A stretch of DNA of 52,014 nucleotides from the NCBI GenBank assembly GCA_009602725.1, contig WELB01000004.1, positions 320,667-372,680 on the forward strand, read 5' to 3'. This DNA is from Spirogloea muscicola (lineage: Eukaryota; Streptophyta; Zygnematophyceae; Spirogloeales; Spirogloeaceae). A program made the position numbers and the translations under genes. Shown piece by piece: positions 125 through 47,499 of the stretch (position 1 is the stretch's first letter; every line of letters starts with the position of its first letter). The notes under the pieces are model-generated. The model searched no databases. It saw nothing but the letters and a program-made list of their open reading frames with translations, and was not told the origin of the DNA.

Positions 125-334
125 GCCGCGGCCCGCGCCGCCGACGCCGCTGCCGTCGCTGCTGCGGCCCCGCCGGCGAGACCACTGAGCGAGCGTCGCG
201 GCGCCACCCGCAGCGGCAGCCATGGTTGCCTGTGGCATTGAGCGCCGAGGGAGCCGGATCCGACATGGCCGCTGCCGGATCCATCGGCCCCAGCTTCCGC
301 AGATGATTCTGGCAGGGCTCCGCCGCCGGCAAGC

Positions 335-3300
335 ATGGCGCTGCTTCCCTTCGCAGCGCCTGCGGAGCCGGGAGTGGACAATGGCGTCCAACCGCGGGCG
401 TTCGGCGAGACGTCCTCGACGGTGCCCGCTCAGAGTGCTGCCGCGCTATCGCGGCTTGGAGCCGAGCTCACCATCCACACTGGCTCGGACGCCGGCATCG
501 GCGACGCGCAGGGGCTCCCACTCGTCCTCCTCTCGGCCTTCGTCACTCTGCTGCATCGTTACAACCCCACCGAGCAGCACGTCGCTGTGAATGCGACCTT
601 GGCCTGCCGCCAACCGGCAGCGGCCGTCAACGGCCTCGGCGGCTTGGCCAAGGCCGTCACGGTGACAGCGCAGAAGGCCGTCAACGGCCATGTCAGCCCC
701 TTCCATAAGCTGCTCAACGGCTACGCTCGGCAGCCCACCGACCCCACCATCCTCAAGGCTCATGCCATGGAGAACGGCCATGTGACGGTGCAGCTGGCAG
801 TCAATGGCTTTTCCCATGACACATCCTTGCTGCAGGATGCAAACGGCGAGAGAGGGCCGGAGCCGAGGAAGGAGGTCTGGCAGGGCGGCGAGGTAGAGGA
901 CTTGCCCGTCAGGGTCTCGTTCGAGCCCACTGCCAGCCACCGTCCTTCAACTGCACTACCGTCTGCGGAAAATGGATGGCATGCTGGCGAGGAGGGCGCG
1001 GCATCCTTTGCCAGTGTGGTGTCGCAGGTCGCTGCGCAGCTGCTGGCTGGGATGAGCCGCCAATCCACACCATCATCTGCAAGAGATGCAGCGGAGGATT
1101 GTGCAGACACGGACTCGTGGGCCGCGGGAGCGAAGGCGCTCTTTGACTTCACAGACCTCGAGTGCCAGCCTGGTGTCACCAGCAAGTGCGGCCTCGACGG
1201 GCGTGAGCTCGTGCTGCGCTCGGCTCTCAAGAAGGACGGCTCCCTGGAGCTGACGTGGTTGTTCAGCATGCAGGCGTATGCAGCCGCCTCCATTCGGCGG
1301 CTCGCAGCCAACTTCCAATCCCTACTGGAGTCCCTGGCATCCTTGCCTGCCACCAAGGTGGCCGCAACACCTGTGCACCGGCTGGATGTGCTCTGCGCCG
1401 AGGAGCGGCAGCTGGTGAAGGTGGAGTTCTCCGGCCAGAAGGTGGCCCGCGCATTGCACCAGAAGTTGACGCCGGAGCGGCTGCATAGGTGGCTCCAGGC
1501 TCAAGACCCCGAAGCCGACATGGAGCAGCGGCGGCAGGGAGCAGCCTTCCCAGTCGAAGCCAAGGGTGACGTGGATGACAACCTCGTCGAGCTGTTCAAT
1601 CGAGCAGTGCGCACGTGGCCAGACAGGGTGGCTGTTCTGCACCACGGGGCGTCCATAACCTATTGCGAGCTCCACCAGCGAGCGCAGGAGATTGCAAGCT
1701 TCCTGATTGCTACGCTCGGCCTCCCCTCCGAGGAGGTTCGCTACCGGCAGGAGGACGTGGTGGCCATCGGAATGGACCGGTGCATTGACTGGGTGGCGTG
1801 CATGCTGGGCACGATGATGAGCGGCCGTGCGTACTTGCCCCTGGACCCCGCGCACCCGCAGCTGAGGTCACAGGAGCTCTTGGAGCAGACGAAGTTGCGC
1901 ATTGTTCTCAGCAACCGGGAGAGCGCTGGCACGTTCCAGTGGGCCGATGGATGGGAGGGCGTCCGCCTAGTGAGCACTGAGAGCCTGCAGGGGCACGCGA
2001 TTGATGCGGCACACATTGCGGCAGCTAATCCGGCCGGCTCCAGCGTCTGCTATGTGCTCTTCACGAGCGGCTCGACAGGTCAGCCTTCAAGTGTATCACA
2101 GCAGGAAGCCATGCACAATTACAGCTGTTCTAAAGTTTACGCGGAGACAGTCTGATAGAGCTCGATGTTGCAAAACCTGCACATCTTACTCTGGGCCTCA
2201 CAGCTGTTATTGACTGATGCATACCCTGACTGCATGCCCCAAGATTTTGCTCGCGGCAGCTGCATCAATGTAAAGGAGTGGGCCTCTTATCATGGTTGCA
2301 ATCCATCGCGTTAGCCATGATAAGGCTCAAGATGTGTGCCAATTACTGACCTTCCTCCTTGCACTGGAACTGGCAGGAGCACCTAAGGGAGTGCTAGTCA
2401 CACACAGGGGTGTCGTGAACATGGCGCACTCTTTCCGGGAGCTGCTGCCTCCTCTGGAGAATGACGTGCGCGGGCAGCTGAGCGCGTCCACTTTCGATCT
2501 GCACGCAATGGACTGCTACTGTGCGTTTGACGTCGGGGCTGCGGTGGCCATATGCCCCAAGGTGAGCACACAGCATTGTCAGGTTGTCAAGCTTGCAGTG
2601 GCATCACAATGTCTCCAGCTTATGGGAAAGGGAAGTATCCCAGCTGCTTGCAAGCTGGCAGATCATTGTTCAGGGGTGCAAGGGCAGGTCTGCTTTCACA
2701 GCCAGTGGGCCAGTGCATGGGCTCATGGCTTCTGCTGTCGAACCCTGTGCAGGAGGACCTGCTCACTGACGCCAATGCTTTCATCCGGAAGTTCAGAGTC
2801 ACAGGAGTGGTGCTTACTCCCACCGTCATGACGCTGCTAGAGCCTGATCTGGCGCCCTCCCTGCGCTGGCTAGCCACGGGCGGAGAGGTACTACCACGAG
2901 CACTTTGCAGGAAGTGGACCTCGGCGGGAAGGACCGTTGTTGACCACTATGCTCCGACAGAGTGCGCCATTGCAGCCTGCTCGGCTGTATGGCGTCCTCA
3001 CCAGCCTGTGGAGGACAATCTTGGCCGACCATGGCCCGGAGCTCATGTCAGTGCGCCTAAGGACACACTGAAACGTGCTGTGTTGATACCTGCAGTCACT
3101 GCAAAGCTTGTGTCAGCTATGCCCTGCCTGTCATGCACAGAGCATGGTAGAGTCTGCAGACAGTTAAGTACTTGGCTTCAAGAGCTTAGTATTGTAGTTG
3201 CATCAGGATTTGTTTTATAGCACCTTGGTTAATCTGTGCATGGGTGCAGTTCTATGTACTAGGCCCGCACCTTGAGCTGCTGCCGGTGGAGGTTCCAGGG

Positions 3301-6300
3301 GAGATGTGCATTGCTGGAGTGCACGTGTCGCGAGGTTATTTGAAGCGACCTGACCTGACAGCCAAGAATTTTCAAAAGAACCCTTTCAGCACTGGGCCGC
3401 ACGATCGTGTTCTCTACCGCACGGGCGACGGCTGTCGCTGGCTCGCAGATGGGCGCATCAAATTCCGTGGTCGCATTGACTTTCAGGTCTGTTCATGCAG
3501 CTGAAGCTGGTTACACCACCTCGTTTGGGCTTGCAATGTCCTCTGCAATTTGTGGTTCTGTTGCAGTTGCCTGTTGCTGACTACAAGGCTTCATGATAAG
3601 CGTCAGGCCAGGCCAATCATGAGCAGCAAGTTGAGAATCTGGCTGATGAGTGCAGGTCAAGGTGAGGGGCCACCGCATTGAGCCGGCAGAGATTGAGGAC
3701 GTAGCGAGCCGTGTAGAAGGGGTTGTGCGCTGCGTGGGCGTGCTGCGGCCAGGTGGCGAAGATGGCCGGCCGCCATACCTGGCGCTCTACCTCAAGATCA
3801 GGCTGGGTGGCCCAACAAGCCGGGACACCGTGACTAGGGCCGTGCGTGACGCCATCCGACAACGGCTGCCATCGTACATGATGCCGGCAGCCTTTGTCAT
3901 CCTGGACGAGCTCCCTTACACAGCTTCTGGCAAAGTGGACCGCAAGTTCCTGCCAGAACCCCCGCCAGAGAGTTTCCGCTTTGAGGCAGTTGGAGGCAGC
4001 AGAGGAGCCGCCAAAGGTGGAGCCGGTGGCGACGACGGCGATGCCTGGGCAGCTCAGCAGCTGCTGCAGCAGCCAGAGGAGCGCGCCGTCGCCGCAGTCT
4101 TTGCGGCCGTCCTGCCGAGTGGCGGAGGCGTCGCGGATGTGCTGGGGCCAGCTTCCAACTTCTTCGACCTGGGCGGCAACTCCTTCACAGCGTCGCAGGC
4201 CATCGCGCGACTCCCACAGGCTTTGGCTGACCAGGAGTCCCCTTCGCAGGGTGGGGCTGCTGCTGAACGGTCCTCAGCGCCGGTCCTGACCATCCGCGAG
4301 TTCTTTGAGAACCCCACGGTCTCTGGGCTCGCGGACGCGCTTAGGCAAAGGCGGGCTGCGACAGATGCAGCAGCAGCTGCAGAACCAGACGCAAAAGGTG
4401 CGAAGGAGGAGGCTGCCAAGGTGGAGGTCAAAGACCTCAAGGGTCATAATACCGGCAAGAGCTTTCTTCATGGTGGCCGCCAGCTGGTGGCCAGGCCGCC
4501 GGGAGACAGCCCCCCGCGGCGGGCGCGGCTCTCGGAGGCGCAGCTCATGATCTACCTGGTCAAGCGTGTGGTTCCAAGGCCAGAGCTGCTGGATTCATCG
4601 GACGTGTGGCGGCTGCGGGGCAGGGTCGACGTGACCCGGCTGGAGCACGCGTTCCAGCTGCTCCTGAAGCGTCACCAGGCCCTGCGCCTGCGCTTTGCTG
4701 TCGAGTCCAAGGGCTTGAAGGCTCGTGTGCTGCGCATGGCCCTCAAGACGTGGGGCAACAACGGTGCATCCCCGGTCGAGTCCGCGGTCGAGGCTTCGGC
4801 AGCTGGGCCCGCTCCGTCCTGCTGCGGCGGCCTGGCGGCGGCGTTGGCGGGCGCCGCCGGCCCCCTATTCTTGCGCCACCTGGATTCTGTGTTCGACTGC
4901 GTGTCCCAGGTGGACCAGCTGGACACGCCCTTCCGGCTGCACCAGACGGACCTTTTGCTTGCATCGGCGGGTGACAAGGTGGCGGCGTTGAGCACCGCCA
5001 TCGATGCGGCCCTCAAGCCGTTTGACATGAATGCCCCGCGGGGGCTGCTGTTCCGTGCCACGCTGATCGGCGGGCTCAGCAGCGACGACGGCGAGCAGCA
5101 GCACGTGCTGGTCATCACAGCCTCCCACCTCATCTGCGACGGCATCTCAGCTGCCATCATGTACAGGGAGCTGCCCTACGTGTACCGAACCGGCTCCCTG
5201 GAGGGCCTGCCGCCTGTGCCGGCCTACAACGACTACGTCGCCTGGGAGGTAGCGGACTTGGCGGGCACCCGCCGGGATGCTGAGCTCAAATTCTGGCGAG
5301 CAACCATCGGGAGAGTCCCTGAGACGCTGCGGCTGAGCCCCCGGCAGAACCGTTCAGTGGCGCTGCCTTGGAGGGGTGCGTGGCTCAAGTTCGTGATCCC
5401 GCCGTCCTCACGGTGGCAGCTCGAGGGGCTGGCCCGGCAGCAAGGCGCGACGCTCAACATGGCACTCCTGGCCCTCTTCAACTCCACCTTGCACCTCTGG
5501 TCGCGCCAGAGCCGCATCCTGGTCGGAACACTGGTCAGCCGGCGGCCGATTGCGCCACTGCAGGGCGTTGTTGGGCACCTTGCAGATGTGCGGCCAGTAC
5601 TGACGGAGGTGGCACAGATGGACGCCACTGCTCGAGCAGCGGCACCTGGGCTGGATTATCTGGACATGTTGGCTCAGGTGAAGGAGGGCATGTTGGCTGC
5701 CATCGAGCACCAGCGCACGACCTTCCGCCTCATTGCCACGCACTTGTCCAAGCCTGACCTCTCACGCGATGCTATCATCTCGGCCTACTTCAACTTCCTC
5801 CAGCCTGGCACGTACGTGTACTTCATTCATCTGGCTGGACAAAGGATTTGTCGCACTTCACATCTTCACAAACTGTTCAGAAATTGTGAGCAGATGCGCT
5901 GCAAGCAGTCCGGACTAAGCATTGACCGGGCCCTTTGTGTCTGCTGTAGTATCTTTTCCCCGACAGTCTGTCAACATTTGTGCACATTCTTGAGTCTTGG
6001 CAGGCTGCTCTTTGCACCTGTGAAGCGGAGGGCATCTTTGTTGGGCTTCTTAGTTGATGTTGTGTGCTTGCAGGGATGCTGCTCCCTGGAGGCTACACTT
6101 CGATGATGAACTCAAGGGAGAGTATGACATGGATGTCTCTTGGTTGAGGGAGGGAGAGACGTCCTTGTCTGCTGTCTCCTTGCTTATGCGGCCCGAGCAG
6201 GATGGCTCAGTTGTTGGACGAATGGTTTACCAGGTGAAAGCCCCATCTGCTAGCTTCTGGTAGCCTCGTGGCTGTCCCGTGGGTTCTTAGTACATACTCT

Positions 6301-22447: not shown

Positions 22448-25400
22448 TTAGTCAGGCACCTGAAGTTCATTCACAAGGCTGGCATACGTGCTGCGGGCTG
22501 CCAGCTCTGCTGATTGCTTCTCCTGCAGGGCTGCCAAGGTGAGGAGCTCCCCCTCCACCTTCCTGCTCATCTTTTGCAGTGTCTGGCACACAAATCCCAA
22601 AGGTGGCTTGGCAGTCAGACCTCAAATAGTGGGGATTCTGACCACAAATAGTGGGGATTCTTACCAACGGTGCAAGAACCTCCAGAGCTCCTCTCATTAA
22701 CAGGACAAGACAGGCTTGTGTTGCAGCAAAGCATGTAAAGAATCACCTCTTCCACGCTCTTCACAATGGCCTGCATTGACTCCAGAAATTTTGCACGGCC
22801 TGCAGGCGATGACATAGCAGCTTCGAACTGCCAAAGCAATAGAAACATTGAGCTATTAGGACTGTTTCAACGAGTTGATCCTGCCTCAAGAGCCGAGACT
22901 GTCAGGTGGTGGCCTCTTTATTTGTGTTGATATGTAGGCTCACAGACTTAATGCCTTAACCAGCCTTTCAAGCATGACCAGTCAAAGCAAGTCCAAGAGA
23001 GCTTGAGAACCATGCAAGGTAGAGAATTGCAGCTGCCAGGCCTTCGGCATTGTGATGTAACCTGTGATTGTATGGATGATAGCAACGAGATTTCCTTGGC
23101 AGCAAACTGGGATAGTGAGAGAACAACATTGTGCATCCTGTAGTGGCCCCTTGATTCCAGAAGCTTCCTCTGATCAGGAGTGAGAAAATGAGCTGGATGA
23201 GCACGGGTAATCACTCTACTGGGTTGTCAACAGGAGCACCAAAACAAACTGGCTTCTAAGTGAAGAGTGCAGATGATGGGGCTCTCAATGACACCCACCT
23301 GGATGTGACCATGGAGCTCCACAAAACGACGCTCATACCTGCACGCAGGCCCACCATAAGTTGTCTGCTCCTCTGCTTAGGCAGGTAAACATGTCACACA
23401 ACCTCGTCCATGAGTGCACCTGTTCAGACTCCTGTGCCTAGTATTATAGACGAAAATTTGGTGATCACCTTATAACATTCACATTAGTCTGAAAGTGGGC
23501 TTGGAGGGCAAAGAAGTGCAACTGTATAAGTTCCCGCTGCGATGGTGCCTCGTCAAGCTGATGTCTTAGGGCGGCAACTCTTTGTCGGCATGTGTCAAGC
23601 TCCTGTTGAAGATGATGGCAACACAGGGTTGAAATGTGAGCAGCAGCAAGACGGAGGCATCGCCGTGACAACGACATACAAGGCTCTGCAAAGCATCAGT
23701 CATACTGCATCAGAATGACTGATGCAGTGCAGGAAGACAAGTGGAATAACCACAAGGGCAAGAATCTGACATTTTTGCTGAGCAACTCGTGATCCCTAGC
23801 TTGTTTGCTCACAACACCTATTGTAGAGCATGGGGAAATGCCTTGCAGCCTTCACAGATGCACTCAGAATTCGTCTGAGATGGAGCTTATTACCACAAGA
23901 AGTTCCTCGGCTTGGACTTCCTGCAGACTCCGTTCTCGAGAGTTGCCAGCTTCCTGTAACATATGGATGGAGTTTTGCAGCTCTGCACGCTGGGTTCGAC
24001 AACTAGACTTGAAGTCCAGCTCCCTATCTCGTGTGCCCTGCCACATGGAGGGCGAAAGTCGTGTCCATGGGCTTCCAAGTCGAAGGGGCAAGGACTTCCT
24101 CGTCTGATACTAATGACTACACATAACATGAGGCATCCTCTGTGCAGTATCGGGATATTGGGCACGTAGATATTCAGCTTTCAAGAATCTCCATATGGGT
24201 CAAGGTGTCCATGCATGCATGTCTCACCTGAAGCTCGCCAAGGAGCCTGACGACCTCCTCAAGGTCATGGTTGCCAATGCCAGCCTCCTCCACTGCCAGG
24301 CGCACTGCGTGCTCCCTTTCCTCGGCTGCCTTGCCCCGCTCCACCTGCCGCAGGTTGTCGGTTTCAGTGAATTGCATCACTGATATTTCATGCTCACAGA
24401 GATGGGCCCTCGTGGTTCACGATGGCGGCCACGTAAGACGGAAGCTGCGGACCTGAGCTGCGAGCAAGATCGAGGAGGCCTCCAAACGTGCCTCGGCGCT
24501 GCTCCGCCAGTCTAGCAGCCTGCCGTCACTGACTATCTTCTCTTCCAAGAGCTGTGGCGCCAGCAGAGCTTCTCATAAGTCATTTCTAGGATGAGCTTAT
24601 CAGTCATCACTCAGATGGTCCTACAAGCTAGAAGGCATCCAGCAATTTGACAAAAGGACGTTCAAGAGTAACAGTGCAGTGCACCTGGCGCTCCTTCCAC
24701 AGGCTGGCGCTGACCTCCTCTGCCAGTTGTTGGGCCTGTTGCTGCACCCTGGAGAGGGCCTGGAACAGGGCCTGAGCTCAGCCCAAGTCCTCTAGTAGGA
24801 AGCTGCTTGGGCGCACATTGTTCTGATGCGATGCTAGTCGAGGTAGGCTGGCTCATTCGACCAAGTGGCAATTATTGAGCAGGGTCAGAGCTGTGGTCTG
24901 AGTCACTTGGCGAGGCCAGGGCTGACCTACGCTGAACACGTCGGAGGGACGCCCACAATGTATAACTCCTTCTCCCAAGCTAAGAGCTGTGCTCCAGCCA
25001 GCACAGTGGAGCAACGGTGTCGGGTTAGCAGGCAGCACTAAGCCTGGGGGATGAGGAAGCCAGGCATGTCTTGACGTATGCCACAACAGTGACTTCAGCC
25101 ATCACTAGAGCCTTGTCAGATATCTGTTAGTCAACACCATGGCAGTGGGGGAGCAGGGGACTTGCAAACCTGCGCTCGCTCTTCAAGACTGCAGCTCGCA
25201 TTGTTGAGCTCAGCATGGAATCGGTGGACTGCATAACTCTCCAGCTGGCAGACAAGTGATGGCGTCAGATGTCAGGCTTAAGCGAAATTCCTACTTCGGT
25301 TGTGACGGGCTTGACAGCTGATGCCACCGCTCTCCTTGCCAGACGTGGCACGTGGGTGTGCCTGAGCAGCAGATGTCCTAGCCCTCATGCAGGCCCCGAA

Positions 25401-26060
25401 TCCGGAACCATGACCCTCAAACCCAACCCAAAAACCCCATGCCCTGTGTCTCCTCCACAGATCAATGGCTACTGCTGCGAGCTTGCTCTCTGCATTGCCG
25501 GATACCGTTCCGCCAGCACTGGCTATTTGCCGAGGTCTCACGTCTGAAAGCTCAGACGTGAGACCAGTGCCCATTACTGACGGCCGCGTCGGTGGCGGGC
25601 GCAGCGCACCTTCTTGGAGCGGTCCTTGCGCGTGCGCTGGGCGCGCTTGAGGAGCCACGCGGCGACGGGCAGGATGGCGGCGTAGTCCAGGCCCTGCAGC
25701 TGGTGCGCCTGCAGCGCGTGCGGGCACCCGAGCCTCTGCAGTGCCGCCTCCACGGCCTCGCCCACCTGCCTGCACAGAGGCGGCGTTCCATGACCTTGAG
25801 GTCGTGGGTCCGAATCCGAAGGACAAATCAGTGATCTGCACCGACGGCTCCGTCCTGCGCTGGGCCCGTCAGCGCTCCCGGGCGGCAGCGGCGGCGCCGG
25901 CGCTCACAGCTTCGCGACGAGCGTGGCGCCGTCGTCGTACAGCAGGCCCTGCTCGAGGTCCACGCCCGCGCCGCCGGCGCCGCCGCCGGCGANCTGAGCC
26001 GCGCACTTCACCTTCAGCCACCCCAGCCCGCGCGAGGCGCCGCTGTTTCCGCCGCCGCCG
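22448..26060 (-). CDS. CCDC93: CCDC93 homologue, Commander/CCC complex subunit
   Basis: Coiled-coil subunit of the CCC (COMMD-CCDC22-CCDC93) part of Commander, which supports endosomal recycling. The first visible exon (about 25990-25908) ends GLLYDDGATLVAKL; its phase joins the next exon (acceptor near 25770) to give VGEAVEAALQRLGCPHALQ and HQLQGLDYAAILPVAAWLLKR, the family's conserved NN-CH-like N-terminal block. Further exons give coiled coil: VEEAGIGNHDLEEVVRLLGEL (~24300-24230, partly quoted), RQRVAALRHQLDEAPSQREL (~23610-23540), AAKEISLLSSIQSQ (~23100-23060), MSSPAGRAKFLESMQAIVKS (~22815-22755) and the last exon, ending VNELQVPD with stop at 22448-22450. The LDE.PS..EL, EISLL.SI and SPA.R..FL blocks match the animal protein in order. 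The n at 25993 interrupts the N-terminus, and no start codon was fixed. Intermediate exons between 24.4 and 25.5 kb are unresolved. Confidence 0.8.
25534..25565. repeat. Perfect 14 bp inverted repeat with 4-base loop
   Basis: GGTCTCACGTCTGA (25534-25547) and its exact reverse complement (25552-25565) flank AAGC. It lies in the first long intron of the CCDC93 gene, just after the conserved HQLQGLDY exon. It contains two ACGT cores (CACGTC/GACGTG). Confidence 0.85.
25993..25993. other. Unresolved base/gap (n) in the CCDC93 5' region
   Basis: A single n sits between two CCG-rich runs. The start of the CCDC93 coding region is probably lost or shifted here. Confidence 0.6.
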
Positions 26061-26354
26061 CCGCCGCCGCCGCCACCGCCGCCGCCGCGGCTGCCGCGCC
26101 CGCGGATCGCAGCTTGGAGGGCGGGGGCCACGCTGACTGCAAGAAAGCCGACTGACGGATGACTGCTGACTGCGGAGGGGGGTTGGAGTCGCCCGTCAGT
26201 GCCGTCGCGGGCGTCAGCTGCCTGGTGACGTTGGGCCGCTTGCTGAGAGCCCCTTCCTTGCGGCTGCTTAGCAGGGGTTACTGAGTGATTGGCAGCTGCT
26301 TTCTTTCTCTGTGTGCTCTGTTTTCTTAGCGCTTCCTCTGGGCCCCCTTCTCGT

Positions 26355-26425
26355 ACTTTGTTCATACTTTTTTGGGCTGGCTTTTCCAGCCCTTATCCTC
26401 AATGGGCGAGCCCTTCTACTTCCAT
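26355..26425 (+). repeat. GGCTGG..CAGCC dispersed repeat, copy F
   Basis: Reads ACTTTGTTCATAC, TTTTTTGGGCTGGC, CCAGCCCTTATCCTCAATGG and GCGAGCCC. It lies upstream of the CCDC93 gene in opposite orientation to it. Confidence 0.65.
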
Positions 26426-27100
26426 GTTCCTCCGCATTCTCACCGCGCCTTTCCATCTTCTGCGTTGTCCCCGCATTGCCTGCGGCGGCTTTGGCCTCCT
26501 GCTGCAATTTCGGCGACCTCACACACTGGCCAGGACATACTGCCGGTGTGTATGATGGAGCACTTCATATGTGACAGATGGTTCGGCATTGACTGCTTCA
26601 TTTGCCATGCGGCCATGCACGAAATGTCGCACGAAGTGCCGCAAGTCTTTAATCTAGTATCCATTAGAATTTCGAGACATGGACATCACTGTTTACATTT
26701 GTAATGTGGCGGTTTCTTCATGAGAAGACTACTGGGAAATGGTGACATTGGGTCCCCTAAATTACACACCTATAGGTCCCCTAATCTACAGACCTACAAA
26801 CCATGCCCAGCAGGTGTTGTTGCCTGAGCTTGGAAAGTACTGCGAATGGAGCACTGCTAATAAGGATAAAATAAGTTATGTTAATAATCCGGAGCCATTC
26901 CGGAGAACAAGGAGAAGGATAAGGATACATGCAACAAGTACTGCTGCAACCAAGGCGACAAGGATCATTGTTCATCGCAGTGGGGACCTTTCCAACTCTA
27001 CCCAACATTAAGTGGCATGAAAGGGAAATTCTCCTTTCCACTTTCCCTTTTGCTGGCAACCTTTGCAGGCGACTTTGTTATACGCCCCTGCAGTGGATTA
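26426..27100. other. Intergenic region between CCDC93 and the ankyrin gene
   Basis: No gene recognised. It contains a two-unit 24 bp tandem (26751-26798, each unit beginning GGTCCCCTAA) and AT-richer DNA toward the 3' end of the ankyrin gene. Confidence 0.4.
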
Positions 27101-39259: not shown

Positions 39260-39771
39260 AGGGGGCACCCGAGATGGGGGAGGGGGTGAGTTCTTCACCC
39301 AACCTCGGACCCCTGGACCCTTGCCCCTGCAGTAACCGTTGCTCAGTTTTACCGTTGCGGCCCCATCCCAATGCCTCCCGCTTTTCCTTGCGCCGCCGGC
39401 AGCCCGGGCTTGGCGATCCACAGCATTCGTTACATCATGCAGGACTGCGGGCCCTCTCTTCTAGACCATACCTTGGCTTCTTCACTTGTATATCTGCTTG
39501 GGCTAACGCCAGGACTTGGAGAGATACAGCCTGTCGTGCAAAGTGGACGGCTTGCTCTTTCAGTGTTTCCGGTGCTTTTGCTGCATTGTTTGCCGTTTTC
39601 GGGCTGGACCTTACTTGCATCAGTGCCACTTTGTTAAGTACCCCATTGTACTCCTCTGACATGTTCCAACACGGGCGAGAGGTATAGCCCTCCTTGAGCC
39701 CTAACCCCAAAACCTTATCCCCCACCTGACGAAAGCCAGAGGCTGCAGCTAGAGGGAGAAAGAGAGGAGAA

Positions 39772-39799
39772 AGCTGCTCTTTCTCTCGAAAGAGCAGCT
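39772..39799. repeat. Perfect 12 bp inverted repeat with 4-base loop
   Basis: AGCTGCTCTTTC (39772-39783) is matched exactly by GAAAGAGCAGCT (39788-39799) around the loop TCTC. It lies just downstream of the block shared with 17285. Confidence 0.8.
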
Positions 39800-39888
39800 A
39801 GAACACGGCTTCCTGAGGAATCATTTGTCAAATAGCATGTAGCAAGATAACAAGGCAAAGCGTAGCTGGCTGCGAGAGCCAGATGCGG

Positions 39889-39924
39889 TGCACCTGCCCG
39901 ACCTGCCACGCGGCAGGGCAGGTG
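39889..39924. repeat. Nested inverted repeat (GCACCTGCCC / GGGCAGGTGC)
   Basis: A 10 bp outer stem encloses an inner CTGCC/GGCAG stem around ACGC. With the hairpin at 39772 it makes this segment strongly structured, upstream of the ~100 bp module. Confidence 0.6.
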
Positions 39925-39968
39925 CCGTCCGGTATTCCGGCATCAGGTCGCGACCTCGTCTGCTGACT

Positions 39969-40067
39969 CGTGGTTACTGAGCGGGTCAGCTTAGAAGCAG
40001 GTTGATGTACATCTGACGATGTGCTTGCCTACTTAGCCACTAAGGCCCTCTATCACTTGTTATACAC
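39969..40067 (+). repeat. Dispersed ~100 bp module, copy 2, upstream of the oxalyl-CoA synthetase gene
   Basis: Matches the minus strand of 11561-11665 (copy 1). It contains GGTTACTGAGCGGGTCAGCT, then ATGTGCTTGCC and GGCCCTCTATCAC. It lies ~275 bp upstream of the start codon at 40343, in gene orientation. A (GCC)n run (40105-40145) lies between. Confidence 0.7.
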
Positions 40068-40104
40068 AATCCTTTCCCTGCCACGCAGCCGCTGCACGCC
40101 GCTG

Positions 40105-40141
<37 letters not shown>

Positions 40142-40342
40142 AGCGCCGCCGTCGCCGCCGCGTGCTCCCCGTCTCTCAGCGGGCGCAGGGCCGTCAGCGG
40201 CACTGGCGGCTGTGGCAGTCGGAGGCAATCTCTAACTCGACTGCCGAAGGCGGCGAGGGCGCTTGAGCCCGCGGCTGCAGGGCCAGCCAGGGCAGGCTCA
40301 GCGGCACCGCGGCTCCGCCGCCGTCCCTCTGCCCCGCCCGCC

Positions 40343-42626
40343 ATGGCGCAGACGCTGTCGGGCCAGCTGGCGGCCGCCACAGAAGCGCATGGCAGCCGTG
40401 TGGCCATTGCGGTCGCTCAGGGGGGACCCCAGAAGACGCACGCCGAGCTCCGCGCTGCGATCGAGCACTGTGCCGCAGAGGTCCGGCGGGCAGGCATCCG
40501 GTCGGGAGACCTCGTCTCCCTCGTCTTCCCCAACTCCATTGAGGTACTCCAGCCTGGTGTGCTTGCGCAGCACAGCGTCCTCCGCTCTTGGCTGCATCTC
40601 AGCAGCTGGGGAGGACGGCGATAAGCTGAGCTGAGCTGAGCTGAGCTGAGCTGAGCTAGCTCGGCCGAGCTGAGCCGAGCCGAGCCGAACCGAGCCGAGC
40701 CGAGCCGAGCCGAGCCTAGCCTAGCCGAGCCGAGCCGAGCCGAGCCGAGCCGAGCCGAGCCGAGCTGAGCTGAGCTGAGCTGAGCTGAGCTGAGCACGCT
40801 GAGCTGAGCTGATGGTCCAAATGCTGCTGCGCAGTTCGTGGTGGCCTTCCTGGGAGTGGTGAGGATGGGTGCGGTGGCCGCCCCTCTCAATGCCGCGTAC
40901 AAGGAGGACGAGTTCCGGTTCTTCCTGGAGGACGCCAAGTCGCGGCTGCTGCTGGTGCCCCAGCCGGACGGCAACAGGCCCGCTGAGGCGGCCGCCGAGG
41001 CGCTCGGCCTGCCCGTCGCCGGCATCGCCAGCTGGCTGCAGGAAGGCCTCGGTGTGGGACTGGAGCCGCGGGCTCGCCTCGAGGTGGCCAGCGAAGAGCC
41101 TCAGGACGGTGCAGGCCCCCTGCCGAGCCCAAAAGCCGAGGCGCTGTTCCTCCACACGTCCGGCACGACGAGCCGGCCCAAGGGCGTGCCGCTCACGCAG
41201 GCCAACCTTGCCGCCTCTGTGTCAAACATCATCCGTACATACGATCTGAGCCCTGAGGACCGCTCTTACGTGGTCATGCCGCTCTTCCACGTGCATGGCC
41301 TCATGGCTTCACTGCTGGCTTCGCTAGCAGCTGGTGGATCCATCGCACTCCCCGCGGCAGGCCGCTTCTCAGCAGGGGCTTTCTGGGCTGACGTGCGGGC
41401 GCTGGGCGTCACCTGGTATACCGCTGTGCCGACCATGCACCAGATCTTGCTCAGCCGCCACAAGAGCCAGCCAGAGGCGGAGTACCCGTCCCTCCGCTTC
41501 ATCCGCAGCTGCAGCTCAAGCCTCGCGCCTGCTGTGCTGGCAAACCTGGAGGATGCATTCGGTGCTCCTGTGCTCGAGGCCTATGCGATGACCGAGGCTA
41601 GCCACCAGATGACAGCCAATCCGCTGCCGGCGCACGGGCCACACAAGCCCGGAACTGTGGGCAAGCCAACCGGCATCGACCTGGGCATCCTGGATGACAA
41701 CGGCAAGGTGCTTGGGCCTGATGAGGAGGGCGAGGTCTGCATCAATGGCCCCAATGTGACACATGGATACCGGGACAATCCTGAGGCCAACAAAACTGCA
41801 TTTGCATATGGATGGTTCCATACTGGGGATCGTGGGAAGCTTGACGCTGAGTGCTACCTTACGCTCACTGGCCGCATAAAGGAGCTCATCAATCGAGGAG
41901 GTCAGTGCCTCTGAGCCCTCCAATTACTATAAGTCATTCGAGGATGGCCATTTGCACGTATCCGCTACTATTGTGGTTAACTGCATTTTCACTTAGTATA
42001 ACTTTAAGCCACTGCCTGCCACTGGCGAATTGCTCATGTCATTTGCGCCCGTGTGTGAACACAACTTCCCCGCCCCGCCGCCATGCACAGGTGAAAAGAT
42101 TTCACCATTGGAATTGGATGCTGCACTTCTGGGCCACCCTGATGTCGCAGAGGCTGTCACGTTTGCAGCCCCGGATGAGAAGTACGGCGAGGAGGTAAGG
42201 CGCATTCTGTTCTTCTCAGGCTGCCCCGCTGACATCAGGTTCTCAACAGGCAAAACAGGCCTGCGAGTTTCTGGCAATGGCTTGCGATCTCATATCTGCA
42301 CCTTGCACAGGTGAATGCAGCGGTAGTGCTGAACAAGGGCGCCAATGCCTCGGAAAAAGACATCCAGGACTACCTCCACAAGCAGCTGGCAGCATTCAAG
42401 ATCCCCAAGCGCATCTTCTTCGCGCAGGAGCTGCCCCGGACGGCTACGGGCAAGATCCAGCGCCGCATGATGGTGGATGTCTTTGTGAAGAAGGCTGATA
42501 GTGGAGCCAGCGAAGAAGGTGACTTGTTGCCTTGCTCGCAGTAGGTCACAGATACCGGAGCATTTCATGATTTCAGCAATTCTCCCTGCAGATTGTGCCA
42601 CACTTAGTGGCACAGAGCGCCTCTGA
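40343..42626 (+). CDS. AAE3: Oxalyl-CoA synthetase (AAE3-type acyl-activating enzyme)
   Basis: ATP-dependent ligase: oxalate + CoA to oxalyl-CoA, the first step of the CoA-dependent oxalate degradation route. Exons 40343-40543, 40835-41900, 42091-42194 and 42311-42518 are in phase. Signatures: LFLHTSGTTSRPKGVPLTQ (AMP-binding P-loop), MPLFHVHGL, AGRFSAGAFWADV, WYTAVPTMHQ, RSCSSSLAP, EAYAMTEASHQM, GWFHTGDRG, LINRGGEKISPLE, and AAFKIPKRIF with the C-terminal lysine motif TATGKIQRR. These follow plant AAE3 almost block for block, and better than 4-coumarate ligases. Two 3' ends are possible. With the strong acceptor at 42591 the protein ends DCATLSGTERL at 42626 (537 residues). With the acceptor at 42687 the frame runs on into the next gene as one polypeptide. 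No TGTAA polyadenylation signal was seen between the two genes. No clear organelle signal; probably cytosolic. Confidence 0.9.
40623..40812 (+). repeat. Pentanucleotide repeat (GAGCT/GAGCC)n in intron 1 of the oxalyl-CoA synthetase gene
   Basis: About 190 bp of GAGCT and GAGCC units with a few variants fills most of the 291 bp first intron (40544-40834). GAGCT blocks flank a GAGCC centre. Likely unstable in length. Confidence 0.9.
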
Positions 42627-42689
42627 CCATCATGGGTGCTGGCAGGACGGCCATGATGGTGCACAGGTCCAGCCAAGAGCCAGGCAGGC

Positions 42690-45344
42690 ATGGCCAGACT
42701 GGACGGCAATGCAATGCTGGCGAGGGCGCTCGCCCGGCTCGGCCTGCACTACATGTTTGGGGTTGTTGGGATACCGGTCACCTCTCTGGCCACGGCCTGC
42801 CAGGTGGCTGGTATACGATTCATAGCGTTCAGAAATGAGCAGTCTGCAAGCTACGCTGCGGGAGCAGCAGGGTATCTGACGGGGCGTCCTGGCCTCCTGC
42901 TGACTGTGTCCGGCCCGGGTGCCGTGCACGGCTTGGCGGGCCTGAGCAACGCTATGATCAATGCGTGGCCGATGGTCATGGTGTCTGGGTCATCGGTCCA
43001 GGCCGATGTGGGCCGCGGCGATTTTCAGGAGCTCGACCAAGTTGCTGCTGTGGCTCCCTTTGTTAAAGCTGCAGGTGAGCGCCAATTAGTCGCTTTTCTT
43101 GTGTTCTGTGATTGTGCATGCATACTATTCATGCAAGCGCTCAGAGCAAGTGGAAATGTGTCCTCCTACACAAGAGAGACCTGTCACTTCACAGCAGCAA
43201 ATGAGATTGCTCTGATGTCTAATGGTCAAGGTTGATTATTGGCAGACCTCATGAATAAAGGCATGAGTACTGTGTCTTATTGAAGTACCATCTGTATTAG
43301 TGTGTAAGACCGTTAGCCTGAGCAGCATGGACAAGTGAGGGGTTGGCTAGCCATTGGAGCTGGTTCACACTTGCGCTGCCCGTCAAGTGACCATCCTCAA
43401 TCCCTTGTATTCTCTTGCAGGTAAGGTCACCAATATCAAGTTGATTCCTCAGCTTGCTGCAGAGGCTGTCAAGGCAGCGCTGCAGGGCAGGCCGGGCGGG
43501 GCGTACATTGACATTCCGGCAGATGTATTTCATGAATCTCTTAGTGAAGCCGAGGCCGAAGATCTACTTGCCCCTCTTGAGCCAGTACTGGCTCCCTGGG
43601 AAGCCAAAGACCCACCGCCTGGGCTCCAAGCAGACAGCCGCATGCTGTCAAAGGCGGTTGACCTGCTGTGCTCAGCCAAGAAGCCGCTTCTTGTCTTTGG
43701 CAAGGGAGCTGCCTATGCCAGAGCAGAGAAGGCTGTTGCGCAATTCGTTGACTCAACTGGCCTGCCCTTTCTGGCCACACCGATGGGCAAGGGTCTGCTC
43801 CCTGACAGTCATCCGGCATCCGCAGCAGCCGCACGGTCGTTGGCTCTCAGCGAGGCAGATGTCGTCCTGGTTGTGGGAGCCAGGCTCAATTGGATGCTGC
43901 ATTTTGGCGAACCACCAAGGTACTCAGCTAGCATCTTCTACTAAGCTGGTCTGGCAAGGAAGGTGATGATGGCAGCAATCCAAGAGGAAGCTTGCGCTGA
44001 CTTGCTTTCGTTTTGCCAGGTGGTCAGCTGATGCCAAGTTCATCCTCATCGACATTGACGGAAAGGAGCTGGAGCTGCGGGATCCGGCGGTGCCTGTGTT
44101 GGGGGACGCCAGAGTAGTCATGGAGCAGCTGACGCAGCTTGTGAAAGATCAAGTGCACTGTCAAGATTGGCTGCAGGCCATTCAGGTCAGTTAGTTGCTT
44201 AGATGCTCAGCTTATATATACAGTTATCACTCACTTGTACTTGAGGGAGAGGTAATTATATGCTGGTGTCCCCCTGCAGCACAAGGCCAGAGGAAATGTG
44301 GAGAAAATGTCCGCAATGCTGGCCAAGGATACATCCCCGCTCAACTTCCACTGCTCCCTGAGAATAATCCGGGATGCAATGTCAGCGCTCGGACACCCAG
44401 CACCGATCCTCGTGTCAGAAGGGGCCAACACGATGGACATTGGCAGAGTGATCCTTGAACAGAAGGAGCCTCGCACGCGGCTGGATGCCGGCACGTGGGG
44501 CACCATGGGAGTTGGGCTGGGCTATGCCATTGCCGCGGCTGTGGTCGAGCCGGAGAGGTTGGTAGTTGCCGTGGAGGGCGACTCTGCATTTGGCTTCAGC
44601 GGCATGGAGGTAGAGGTGAGAGGTCTTGGATTGTCATGTCAAGGCCCGTTTGCTATAGTGTGGCCTTCTGGGCCCGAGATTCATGTCAGCTTTACTATGG
44701 ATGCCTCCGCTTGCAGCTCAGCAGCTTCCTGCTGTGGTCATATTCAGCTAACATCCTGTCACTGAAGCTGCAGCGTTGTGATCAATTGCTCCTGCTGGTG
44801 GCAGACAATGGTTAGGTACAAGCTACCCATTGTGATCATTGTCATGAACAATGGTGGTGTATATGGTGGCGAGCGGCGAGCTCCAGTATCCTTACCAGAG
44901 GCCATCGCGTCAGACCCGGCGCCCACTGCTTTTGTGCCAGATGCCAAGTACGACCTCCTTATGGAGGCCTTTGGTGGCAAAGGCTACTACGTCACCACCT
45001 CGCAAGTAAGTGTAGCAGTCGCAACCAGGGTCTTGGACCCAGCAACTTTGCTGCATTCTTGAAGTGTCAGTTGACCATTGCATACAGGATGGTAGCCCCA
45101 GGGTATTCTCCCTCAATCCAAGTTCAGCATAATCTAGGGTCCCACTGTCGCCGGAACCCCTATGTCAAGGCTGCTCTTGTTGCGTGAACTGTATATATTG
45201 TCAAGATCATGTTGCTGCCGGTTGCTGCAGGAATTGGAGGCTGCCGTCGCTGAGGCATTTGGCACCAAGAAACCCGCTTTGATCAATGTCATCATTGATC
45301 CCATGGCTGGGTCCGAGAGTGCCACTATGGGGCACCGCAACTAG
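42690..45344 (+). CDS. OXC: ThDP-dependent oxalyl-CoA decarboxylase / 2-hydroxyacyl-CoA lyase
   Basis: ThDP enzyme expected to convert oxalyl-CoA to formyl-CoA + CO2, as the plant homologue does; 2-hydroxyacyl-CoA lyase activity is the family alternative. Exons in phase: 42690-43074, 43421-43919, 44020-44185, 44280-44615, 44805-45005, 45231-45344, giving 566 residues. N-terminal ThDP-PYR domain: YMFGVVGIPVTSLA, FRNEQSASYAAGAAGYLTG with the cofactor-activating Glu, and SGPGAVHGLAGLSNA. Central domain: GRPGGAYIDIPADV and ILIDIDGKELELRDP. C-terminal ThDP-PP domain: GTMGVGLGYAIAAA, then the ThDP/Mg motif EGDSAFGFSGMEVE, with the Asn pair in IVMNNGGVYGG. The C-terminus GSESATMGHRN has no peroxisomal SKL-type signal. 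The start ATG is only 63 bp from the possible stop of the synthetase gene, and the GC before it (42688-42689) restores phase for a fusion. Acetolactate synthase was considered and rejected on the blocks above. Confidence 0.9.
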
Positions 45345-45459
45345 CTGAAGCGCAGCAATGGAGGTGCACCTGCCTACTCCTGCAATCACCGGAGCCATTG
45401 CCTGATCCTTCTTACCTGTCCAGCTCTTGTCAGTGTCCCACCATGTGCATATGTTCAGG

Positions 45460-47499
45460 TCACAAGATATGGGTTCTAGCAAAACTCCATAGTCGCCAGC
45501 CTGTCAGCATAAGGAGATAGTCACAATACTGCTGCAGATCGGAGGACTGTTGCCCATGATTGAGAAAGTCCATCCCCAAGTTGCATCGGTCTACCTTTTT
45601 GTGAGTCTGTTGTAGTGAGAATGGGGTGTTCAACCACTGCAAAACAGCATCAAGAGTATACTGGGTAGGTGCAACACAAGTTTCTCTTAATGTACTTGTG
45701 ATATTACCCACTGGTTGCATATGAGGCACTTCAAGAAACTTGTTTTCATCATCAAAACCATAGCTGTGGCAGCCGCAAGCATTTGGTCATAGGCAATTGA
45801 AACAATGTGCACTGGCTTGCAATGCTTGCAAACGTGTTGTAAAGCCTAGCTTTTTCAACCCTGATGGCATGAATGCTGATGGAGAGGAGCATGGTATCAT
45901 CTGATCACAGATGACTTGCCATACCCTGCATGTACACCAGTCACTGTCAAGTGATGGAACCTTGTGTCTGCAGACTGCAGGCAAGAGTACATCGTTTAGG
46001 CTGTGGCTGCATTTGCAGGCTTTTGCTGCATGCTCAATATAAGATTGCTCCACAAGCTTGGCCAGGCCAAGCTTCTCAGAGCTGGAGTACATTGACGGAG
46101 AGTGCAACTCTGGCTCACCGCACTGGTGGCCCACTGGTATAGGTGTTGGTAATCCACCAAGTCATAAGGGTGTGATGCCCCAGGCCAGCAAGTTAACACC
46201 TTGTTGATGTCATTAGCTCAACACTGCAAGCACCTGGCACTGCATTGACATACGAGTTACCTGGCCATAGCTTGAAGAGCCTTCACTTGCTTATTAAACT
46301 CCACCTGGCAGGGACTGTGTATGAGATTTGCTCACCAGGACGTCACAAGCAAGAGTTAACAGACCTTTCAGCTTTGCTTATAGATAAGGGGGAGTTGAAG
46401 GAACGCAAGAAAGGCAGAAGCTGATGATGTGGGAGCTTACAAGCTCTCACTGGATGCCAACCGGCAGCAGCGTCTCACATAGTGACGGGCAGACAATGAC
46501 CTTCGACTGGGCTGCTTCTACAAAGAGCTCCCTCCTGCAGGGCAACCAAGACTCCATGTCTGTTACAGTACCACTTCAAATTGCTCTTAGCAGGATCTTT
46601 CATTTCTGAATACACATGTGCAGATTAACGCGCAAAAAAGCTGCCAGACTGAGAGAGAAATTACTTACCAGGGCGGGTGTATCCGAATCTCCTGCTGAGG
46701 CTCAATGTCGCCGTCCAGGCTCCCCTTCAGGCTGAAGATGACGTATACCTTGACATCTGAATGCCCGTCAGGAGTTGGTGGCGGAGGCAACAACCACCCC
46801 TGCATACGCACCACAAAAGGAGGTGAATGCATTGCAGGTGCCCCTCCCCTGCCAACCTTGGCACATCTCGCACGAAGTATTGCGGGTGCGCTTCACAAGG
46901 GCACGACCACTGTAGTGCAATTTGTAACCAGCACACCTCAGGTGATCGCAGGACCTGGCAGTTGCACTTGGCAATGTGGGCCTCGAGGCTCTTCTCCAAG
47001 ACGCGGACGTCCACAACTTTGGAGAGGTCTGCCAGCAGAGGGTCGAATGCGAGGACGCAGTAAACACGGCAGACCAGAGGGTCTCTCAATGGTCCGGCAA
47101 TATCAAAGTGGCAGCTGAGCGCAGCTAAGTGCAACTCATGGACAGAAGCCATGGCCGTGTACCCCTGCAGCTTGCCATGTGACAGGCCGTTCTGCTGAGG
47201 AATGTGGGGAACCACCTGGAGGAGGGCGGCCCTCCTGGAGCCGCTTGGCAAACGCCAGGCGCAGGTGCCGCTCCCGCTGCGCAGCGCGCTGCAGCGCCGC
47301 CGAGTAGCTCGCCCTGCGGAAGGCGCGCTGCGTCGCCCCATCAGCGGCTGTGCTTAGGACTGAGGCCGGCAATGGCGGCGAGCGGGAGCTCGCTTGGCAG
47401 GCGTACGCTGGAGCCAGCTCCGTGGTGGCGGCGCGGCCGGCGGCGGCCGGGCCGCTGGCCAGGGCCTCGGCGAAGGCCTCGCGCAGGCTCTGGACCATG
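45460..47499 (-). CDS. Unrecognised multi-exon protein
   Basis: The start at 47499 sits in a good context (GCGCCATGG) and gives MVQSLREAFAEALASG, an Ala-rich helical N-terminus with RRASYSAALQRAAQRERHLR. Then, in another frame, ~47160-46950 encodes ASVHELHLAALSCHFDIAG and LVCRVYCVLAFDPLLADLSK, followed by VVDVRVLEKSLEAHIAKCNC. Likely later exons: GYKLHYSGRALVKRTRN (~46915-46860), DVKVYVIFSLKGSLDGDIEP (~46760-46700), ELFVEAAQSKVIVCPSLCET (~46540-46460), VEFNKQVKALQAMA (~46310-46265), HPYDLVDYQHLYQ (~46180-46135), SSEKLGLAKLVEQSYIEHAA (~46090-46030), and LDAVLQWLNTPFSLQQTHKK (~45650-45590) to a stop at 45460. I could not assign a family. The first junction implies a very short intron or a frameshift near 47210. 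It converges on the OXC gene, 115 bp from stop to stop. Confidence 0.5.

Follow-up and report, generated by a model that had tools for sequence, protein, structure and literature searches.

In plants, the coenzyme A (CoA)-dependent oxalate pathway depends on two enzymes that were found separately; in the family of the second one, the labels oxalyl-CoA decarboxylase and 2-hydroxyacyl-CoA lyase are mixed. The subject here is a predicted gene of Spirogloea muscicola (Zygnematophyceae) that would join both enzymes in one chain. It occupies positions 40343-45344 (+) of a 52,014-nucleotide stretch of DNA, the whole of which is called the window below (contig C4:320667-372680, part of the 153-Mb, 471-contig assembly GCA_009602725.1), and ten exons are readable in it. 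Each enzyme is already known, as is the order in which they act; their union in one polypeptide would be the new part. In Arabidopsis the first enzyme, AAE3, is a free protein. The N-terminal half of the predicted fusion (half 1) shares AMP-binding motifs with it and with PDB entry 6qjz across nearly the full length, but bears a second enzyme at its C-terminus. PDB entries 5ie0, 5ie2 and 5ie3 are taken here to be Arabidopsis AAE3. The second Arabidopsis enzyme, AtOXC (At5g17380), is the same three-domain thiamine diphosphate (ThDP) enzyme as the C-terminal half (half 2) and has the same Phe-Gln-Tyr set; it is cytosolic, is co-expressed with AAE3 and turns the AAE3 product into formyl-CoA (PMC8004701). 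AtOXC is encoded by a separate gene, whereas half 2 belongs to the same polypeptide as the synthetase; the two proteins were compared by their motifs. Plant OXC is also treated in PMC9090294.

Bacterial oxalyl-CoA decarboxylases (PDB 2q27 and 2q29 from E. coli, 2c31 from O. formigenes) share the family of half 2 and match it over the full length, but the O. formigenes active site has Tyr120-Glu121 where half 2 has Phe-Gln, and the bacterial oxalate pathway differs from that of plants (PMC8004701). On the Cupriavidus plasmid pRK1-1, a ligase gene and a ThDP enzyme gene follow each other in the order seen in the fusion, 18 nt apart. They are separate genes, about 27% identical to the fusion, and probably serve other acids. 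In mycobacteria, fadD7 presumably adjoins an oxcA gene. The lyase-HCL clusters of Actinomycetospora likewise contain an AMP-forming CoA ligase gene together with a ThDP enzyme gene, again as separate genes (PMC7176365). In grass pea, AAE3 was reported in a metabolon with a partner enzyme (PMC9935904). The Arabidopsis LTD protein resembles the fusion in that domains for consecutive catabolic steps are found in one plant protein, but it belongs to the L-threonate pathway, which is reported to be absent from green algae (PMC12540250). Green-algal bicistronic loci consist of two same-strand open reading frames (ORFs) with a short spacer, as does this locus (PMC11892635). No AAE3-OXC fusion was reported in the titles and abstract openings of the matches listed in a literature search whose coverage was partly off topic and thin for subscription literature, and databases of predicted eukaryotic proteins may already contain such fusions.

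The locus is very probably one gene encoding a fused bifunctional oxalyl-CoA synthetase-decarboxylase, a reading that rests on comparison of sequences. A whole-genome search with the AMP-binding family detected two more near-equal copies of the locus, on contigs C7 and C1, and about 10 kb from each was compared with the window copy. They are collinear with it, at 87.8% (C7) and 88.5% (C1) identity across blocks of about 6.3 kb, and pairwise identity among the copies in six measured exon stretches is 92-97%. A second segment, window positions 24000-27000, also has counterparts on both contigs: C7 matches its first 1,992 bases at 86% identity, while C1 matches the same bases at 85% and the last 582 at 88%. 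In both cases the strand and the side relative to the fused gene are the same as in the window, and the three loci are therefore syntenic copies rather than local duplicates. The same arrangement on three separate contigs also makes a chimeric assembly unlikely. Syntenic copies about 85-88% identical, seen for window 24000-27000 and 39400-47000, look like those of a triploid or hybrid genome.

Such diverged homeologs help to tell a fusion from a dicistron without RNA, through the loss of the second start codon and the retention of the joint frame. In the three-way alignment the candidate start of the decarboxylase frame (ORF2) at 42690, codon 535 of the fusion, is ATG in the window but ACG in C7 and ATT in C1, so that the encoded residue is Met, Thr or Ile. 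Upstream of it an in-frame TGA is present in all three copies (window 42654-42656), with no ATG between. The first in-frame ATG of C7 and C1 is codon 543 (42714), within the conserved N-terminus. A separate ORF2 in these copies would therefore need a start within the conserved N-terminus or a non-AUG start. The fused frame, in contrast, stays open in every copy, whichever of the acceptors 42666, 42672 and 42687 is used. No indel events were found among the copies in the ten exons (3,303 nt including the stop) vs 31 in the nine introns, three of which fall in 42592-42666.

Purifying selection acts on both halves: across the three pairs of copies, the ratio of nonsynonymous to synonymous rates (dN/dS) spans 0.112-0.130 in the synthetase half and 0.079-0.117 in the decarboxylase half. 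Synonymous/nonsynonymous changes per branch are 30/9 (window), 26/12 (C7) and 33/7 (C1) in the decarboxylase half and 26/9, 36/15 and 30/13 in the synthetase half, counts that exclude 4 and 3 sites differing in all three copies. The smallest nonsynonymous share in ORF2 belongs to C1, another copy without the ATG, and the loss of the ATG was therefore not accompanied by clear relaxation. Single changes lead from ATG to ACG and to ATT. The simplest history is therefore that codon 535 would be the former ORF2 start, which became a free linker codon and changed twice after the fusion.

The predicted gene has the following parts (window coordinates, all on the + strand).
40343..40543, +, exon 1: beginning of half 1 (oxalyl-CoA synthetase, AAE3-like); GCCATGG start context in all three copies
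40835..41900, +, exon 2: AMP-binding core; SGTTSRPKG from residue 176, YAMTE from 317, GWFHTGD from 393
42091..42194, +, exon 3: synthetase half
42311..42518, +, exon 4: end of the synthetase; TGKIQRR with Lys505; the window copy ends ..GASEE, phase 1
42519..42666, +, predicted junction intron: GT at 42519, AG at 42665-42666
42667..43074, +, exon 5: linker GPAKSQAG (codons 527-534), codon 535 and the beginning of half 2 (decarboxylase)
43421..43919, +, exon 6: within half 2
44020..44185, +, exon 7: within half 2
44280..44615, +, exon 8: within half 2; Asp985 in GDSAFGF
44805..45005, +, exon 9: within half 2; Asn1012 and Tyr1016 in MNNGGVYGG
45231..45344, +, exon 10: C-terminus ..TMGHRN and stop
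45838..45842, +, TGTAA: sole such signal in the 3' flank of the window copy (45345-46900)

The exon borders of the synthetase frame (ORF1) are GT/AG. The 3' flank has one TGTAA in the window, two in C7 and one in C1. Inside the ORF2 region both the window, in the first intron of that region, and C7 have one such signal. Between the ORFs there is none, as the preliminary description of this DNA had stated: neither 40343-42518 nor 42519-42689 contains one in any of the three copies. Intron 1 of the window copy holds an array of GAGCT/GAGCC pentanucleotides (40620-40815), and the intron is far longer than its two counterparts, which have 137 and 151 gap columns in alignment with the window.

The preliminary description had joined donor 42518/519 to acceptor 42687, and the resulting product of 1,093 residues (..SEE-G-MARLDG..) was reproduced; its donor, acceptor, stop and ATG coordinates were all correct on recheck. 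It had missed two further in-frame acceptors, 42666 and 42672, as well as the early stop of the unspliced reading and the other two copies of the locus. A scoring matrix was built from 24 acceptors, those of the eight other introns in three copies. In the order window, C7 and C1, acceptor 42666 scores 7.8, 8.7 and 8.7, the best of the three in-frame acceptors, 42672 scores -0.4, 0.9 and 0.9, and 42687 scores -3.4, -2.8 and -4.0. The fourth, 42591, scores 5.8, 2.0 and 5.2. The matrix is small, and its scores therefore rank the acceptors and do not prove their use. With this limit, 42687 gives way as the fusing site, and the junction acceptor is probably 42666, not 42687 or 42591. The earlier statement that 42591 is stronger than 42687 agrees with the scores, but 42666 outscores 42591 in all three copies. 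The AGs of 42666, 42672 and 42687 are all conserved in the three copies. A CTGAC lies 40, 39 and 40 nt upstream of 42666 in the window, C7 and C1; such a loose motif is missing from several other introns and favours 42666 only slightly.

Acceptor 42666 would give a protein of 1,100 residues with the linker GPAKSQAG (GPAKNQAG in C1), from which the predicted tryptic peptides are ADSGASEEGPAK or SQAGMAR in the window, SQAGTAR in C7 and NQAGIAR in C1. Acceptor 42591 was tried as a coding junction and rejected. In the window it yields ..DCATLSGTERL and a stop (TGA 42624-42626, 63 bp upstream of ATG 42690, as described before), in C7 ..EYATLQ and a stop, and in C1 a reading out of frame with ORF2. 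Frames and ends differ between the copies, and 42591 therefore has no conserved coding role. Every other AG in 42519-42720 was rejected as well, since in no copy does one of them join ORF2 in an open frame.

The assignment of both halves is supported by homology, as had been proposed. Half 1 matches the oxalate--CoA ligase of PDB 5ie0 over residues 3-518 (E 1.4e-187) and the oxalyl-CoA synthetase of 6qjz over residues 2-518 (E 5e-181). PF00501 and PF13193 are above cut-off in it, and its SGTTSRPKG and TGKIQRR are taken to be the P-loop and catalytic lysine motifs. Half 2 (exons 5-10) is a ThDP enzyme of the oxalyl-CoA decarboxylase/2-hydroxyacyl-CoA lyase family and exceeds the cut-off of NCBIfam PRK09259 (oxalyl-CoA decarboxylase; 656.1 bits, cut-off 557). 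It falls well short of HdaclCoAlyACT (265.9 bits vs 600), which, to judge by its name, would stand for an actinobacterial lyase type. By motif and spacing, without an alignment to AtOXC, Phe646, Gln647 and Tyr1016 correspond to Phe120, Gln121 and Tyr488 of AtOXC, and, also by motif and spacing, Glu584, His614, Asp985 and Asn1012 correspond to its ThDP/Mg residues Glu58, His88, Asp457 and Asn484. The Tyr120/Glu121/Tyr488 active site of the O. formigenes type was not found in half 2.

In the proposed model, a single nuclear gene with ten exons would encode one bifunctional protein, about 1,100 residues long and 116 kDa in mass. The AAE3-type synthetase at its N-terminus would convert oxalate, ATP and CoA to oxalyl-CoA, and a linker of about eight residues would connect it to a ThDP-dependent oxalyl-CoA decarboxylase, which would convert oxalyl-CoA to formyl-CoA and CO2. 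The probable origin of the gene is the in-frame splicing of a decarboxylase gene lying downstream onto the synthetase, whereby the old start would have become an ordinary linker codon. Splicing at 42666, the presence of one polypeptide in the cell and the possession of both catalytic activities are predicted from the sequence. The fusion would be cytosolic; its C-terminus, GHRN, is presumably unlike a peroxisomal targeting signal. Assembly may occur through the decarboxylase half with the synthetase domains outside, and oxalyl-CoA may be handed over between the sites. A natural fusion with an oxalate-activating enzyme would be independent, evolution-based evidence, and the best evidence here, that oxalyl-CoA is the substrate of half 2 and thus of the plant-type enzyme. 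It would also offer a single-chain catalyst for oxalate removal and for tests of substrate hand-over.

Several observations weigh against this interpretation. For half 1, all 25 listed NCBIfam models stay below their cut-offs, and the best of them is PRK05852 (FadD7 fatty acid--CoA ligase), with 512.9 bits against a cut-off of 650. Half 2 misses the cut-off of the oxalyl-CoA decarboxylase model TIGR03254 (625 vs 739.4), and its best PDB match is TbHACL/S, a 2-hydroxyacyl-CoA lyase/synthase. At the junction, donor 42518 scores 6.3, under all 24 others (7.3-11.9). The AG at 42541 scores 8.1 in each copy and is the sole one of the ten scored AGs to match 42666, although it opens no frame into ORF2 and would imply an intron of 23 nt. 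The acceptor matrix is tiny, and leave-one-out scores of its own sites range from -3.4 to 10.4. C7 has the highest nonsynonymous share in ORF2 (12/38 vs 9/39 and 7/40). In the window copy, ATG 42690 stands in a good context and could also allow internal initiation. All three copies come from a single assembly, and the bases of codon 535 are assembly calls. Finally, the first 36 nt of the junction intron (window 42519-42554) are identical in the three copies, while identity among copies over the same stretch of the other eight introns is 0.50-0.94. This could mean that the unspliced reading is used.

In that unspliced reading, ORF1 ends in GDLLPCSQ followed by a stop (TAG 42542-42544), in all three copies. 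The gene could thus yield two products by alternative splicing: the fusion, and a stand-alone synthetase with the end ..SEEGDLLPCSQ from transcripts that keep the junction intron. The identical 36 nt, the short C-terminal tail kept in every copy and the relatively weak donor are consistent with this, but the identical run may be due to chance: another intron reaches 0.94, and two others contain runs of 30 and 28 nt. A retained-intron form is a doubtful addition, and it would not replace the fusion. A wider scheme is unlikely: the fusion would be obligate and, in this lineage, the sole route from oxalate to formyl-CoA and CO2, oxalyl-CoA would be handed over locally, a conserved retained-intron isoform would add synthetase, and splicing of this one intron would set the ratio of the two activities.

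Another alternative accepts the fusion but makes half 2 mainly a 2-hydroxyacyl-CoA lyase and not an oxalyl-CoA decarboxylase. The match to TbHACL/S, a lyase also labelled oxalyl-CoA decarboxylase, favours it, and proteins with this label may be lyases (PMC11271303). The Phe-Gln pair in place of the Tyr-Glu of O. formigenes OXC and the missed TIGR03254 cut-off point the same way. The Phe/Gln/Tyr set is however also that of Arabidopsis OXC, which decarboxylates oxalyl-CoA made by AAE3 (PMC8004701). Half 2 passes PRK09259 and, above all, is joined to an oxalate-CoA ligase. A lyase as the main activity is quite improbable.

The fused gene also has to be weighed against a dicistronic mRNA, in which ORF1 would end at 42544 (unspliced) or 42626 (acceptor 42591) and ORF2 would be translated through leaky scanning or reinitiation. 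The preliminary description had held fusion and dicistron both plausible. It was right that dicistrons with short spacers are documented in green algae, where spacer medians are 183 and 40 nt (PMC11892635). The window spacer, 145 or 63 nt depending on the ORF1 end, is similarly short and free of TGTAA, and the GDLLPCSQ end is kept in all copies; a single gene would account for the short spacer and the missing TGTAA just as well. Published green-algal bicistrons have short first ORFs (medians 357 and 291 nt) with weak start contexts (Duenas et al. 2025, PMC11892635), and few AUGs lie ahead of their second ORF, consistent with leaky scanning (PMC11892635). ORF1 of the fused locus is, by contrast, about 1.6 kb long, begins in the strong context GCCATGG and is rich in AUGs: its exons contain, start included, 27 in the window, 27 in C7 and 30 in C1 (codon-shuffle means 20.6, 21.0 and 22.0). 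The spacer holds 3-5 further AUGs. Of the published features, only the short spacer is found here; the short, AUG-depleted ORF1 with a weak context and the conserved ORF2 start are absent, and the main text of PMC11892635 contains none of the words oxalyl, oxalate and AAE3. With the ORF2 ATG gone in two of three copies, the ORF1 features reversed and the ends from acceptor 42591 differing between copies, a dicistron is very improbable, whereas the fusion is strengthened by the frame kept in all three copies. Two close genes with their own transcripts, ORF2 starting at 42690 in the window or at ATG 42714 in the others, are extremely improbable: all three copies do have ATG 42714, and the alignment of free-standing relatives begins near ORF2 residue 1, but a start at 42714 would lose the conserved ARLDGNA stretch at the N-terminus of the domain, a promoter would have hardly any space, TGTAA is lacking, and the fused frame through the intron in all three copies would be left unexplained.

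Separate copies of the two enzymes were searched for in the genome exon by exon, with the best candidates scored. No unfused decarboxylase was found: 18 of the 22 half 2 matches are exons of the three loci, and the remaining four are 31-39% identical over 57-89 residues. No unfused synthetase was found either (12 of 26 half 1 matches are exons of the three loci, and the remaining 14 are partial stretches of 30-45% identity), although a very diverged separate gene could escape such a search. In bacterial and archaeal contigs, a scan with the decarboxylase half gave 86 pattern-matching stretches, 11 of which encode a relative (25-47% identical). The synthetase half had no TBLASTN match at E 1e-4 in those 11 loci, five of which are just 3.5-7.7 kb long. 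A scan of viral contigs with the synthetase half matched one stretch, which contained no relative. In a plasmid collection, 3 of the 3,994 records matching the fused protein match 80% or more of the query at a single site, at about 27% identity; one of these matches is two genes, and the other two each have several annotated genes under the match.

Elsewhere in the window, a gene of the nonribosomal-peptide-synthetase type is found at 242-6103 (+), with AMP-binding, AMP-binding C-terminal, phosphopantetheine-binding and condensation domains; an AMP-binding match at 2274-2828 is slightly under the Pfam cut-off. In the genome outside the window, a weak, unrelated TPP-enzyme match is, like the fused locus, present on three contigs (C3, C61 and C36). 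At window 26258-26425 lies a repeat of about 160 bp, the size of a short interspersed element, which occurs at dozens more places in the genome, mostly 92-96% identical (40 of 2,153 candidates scored).

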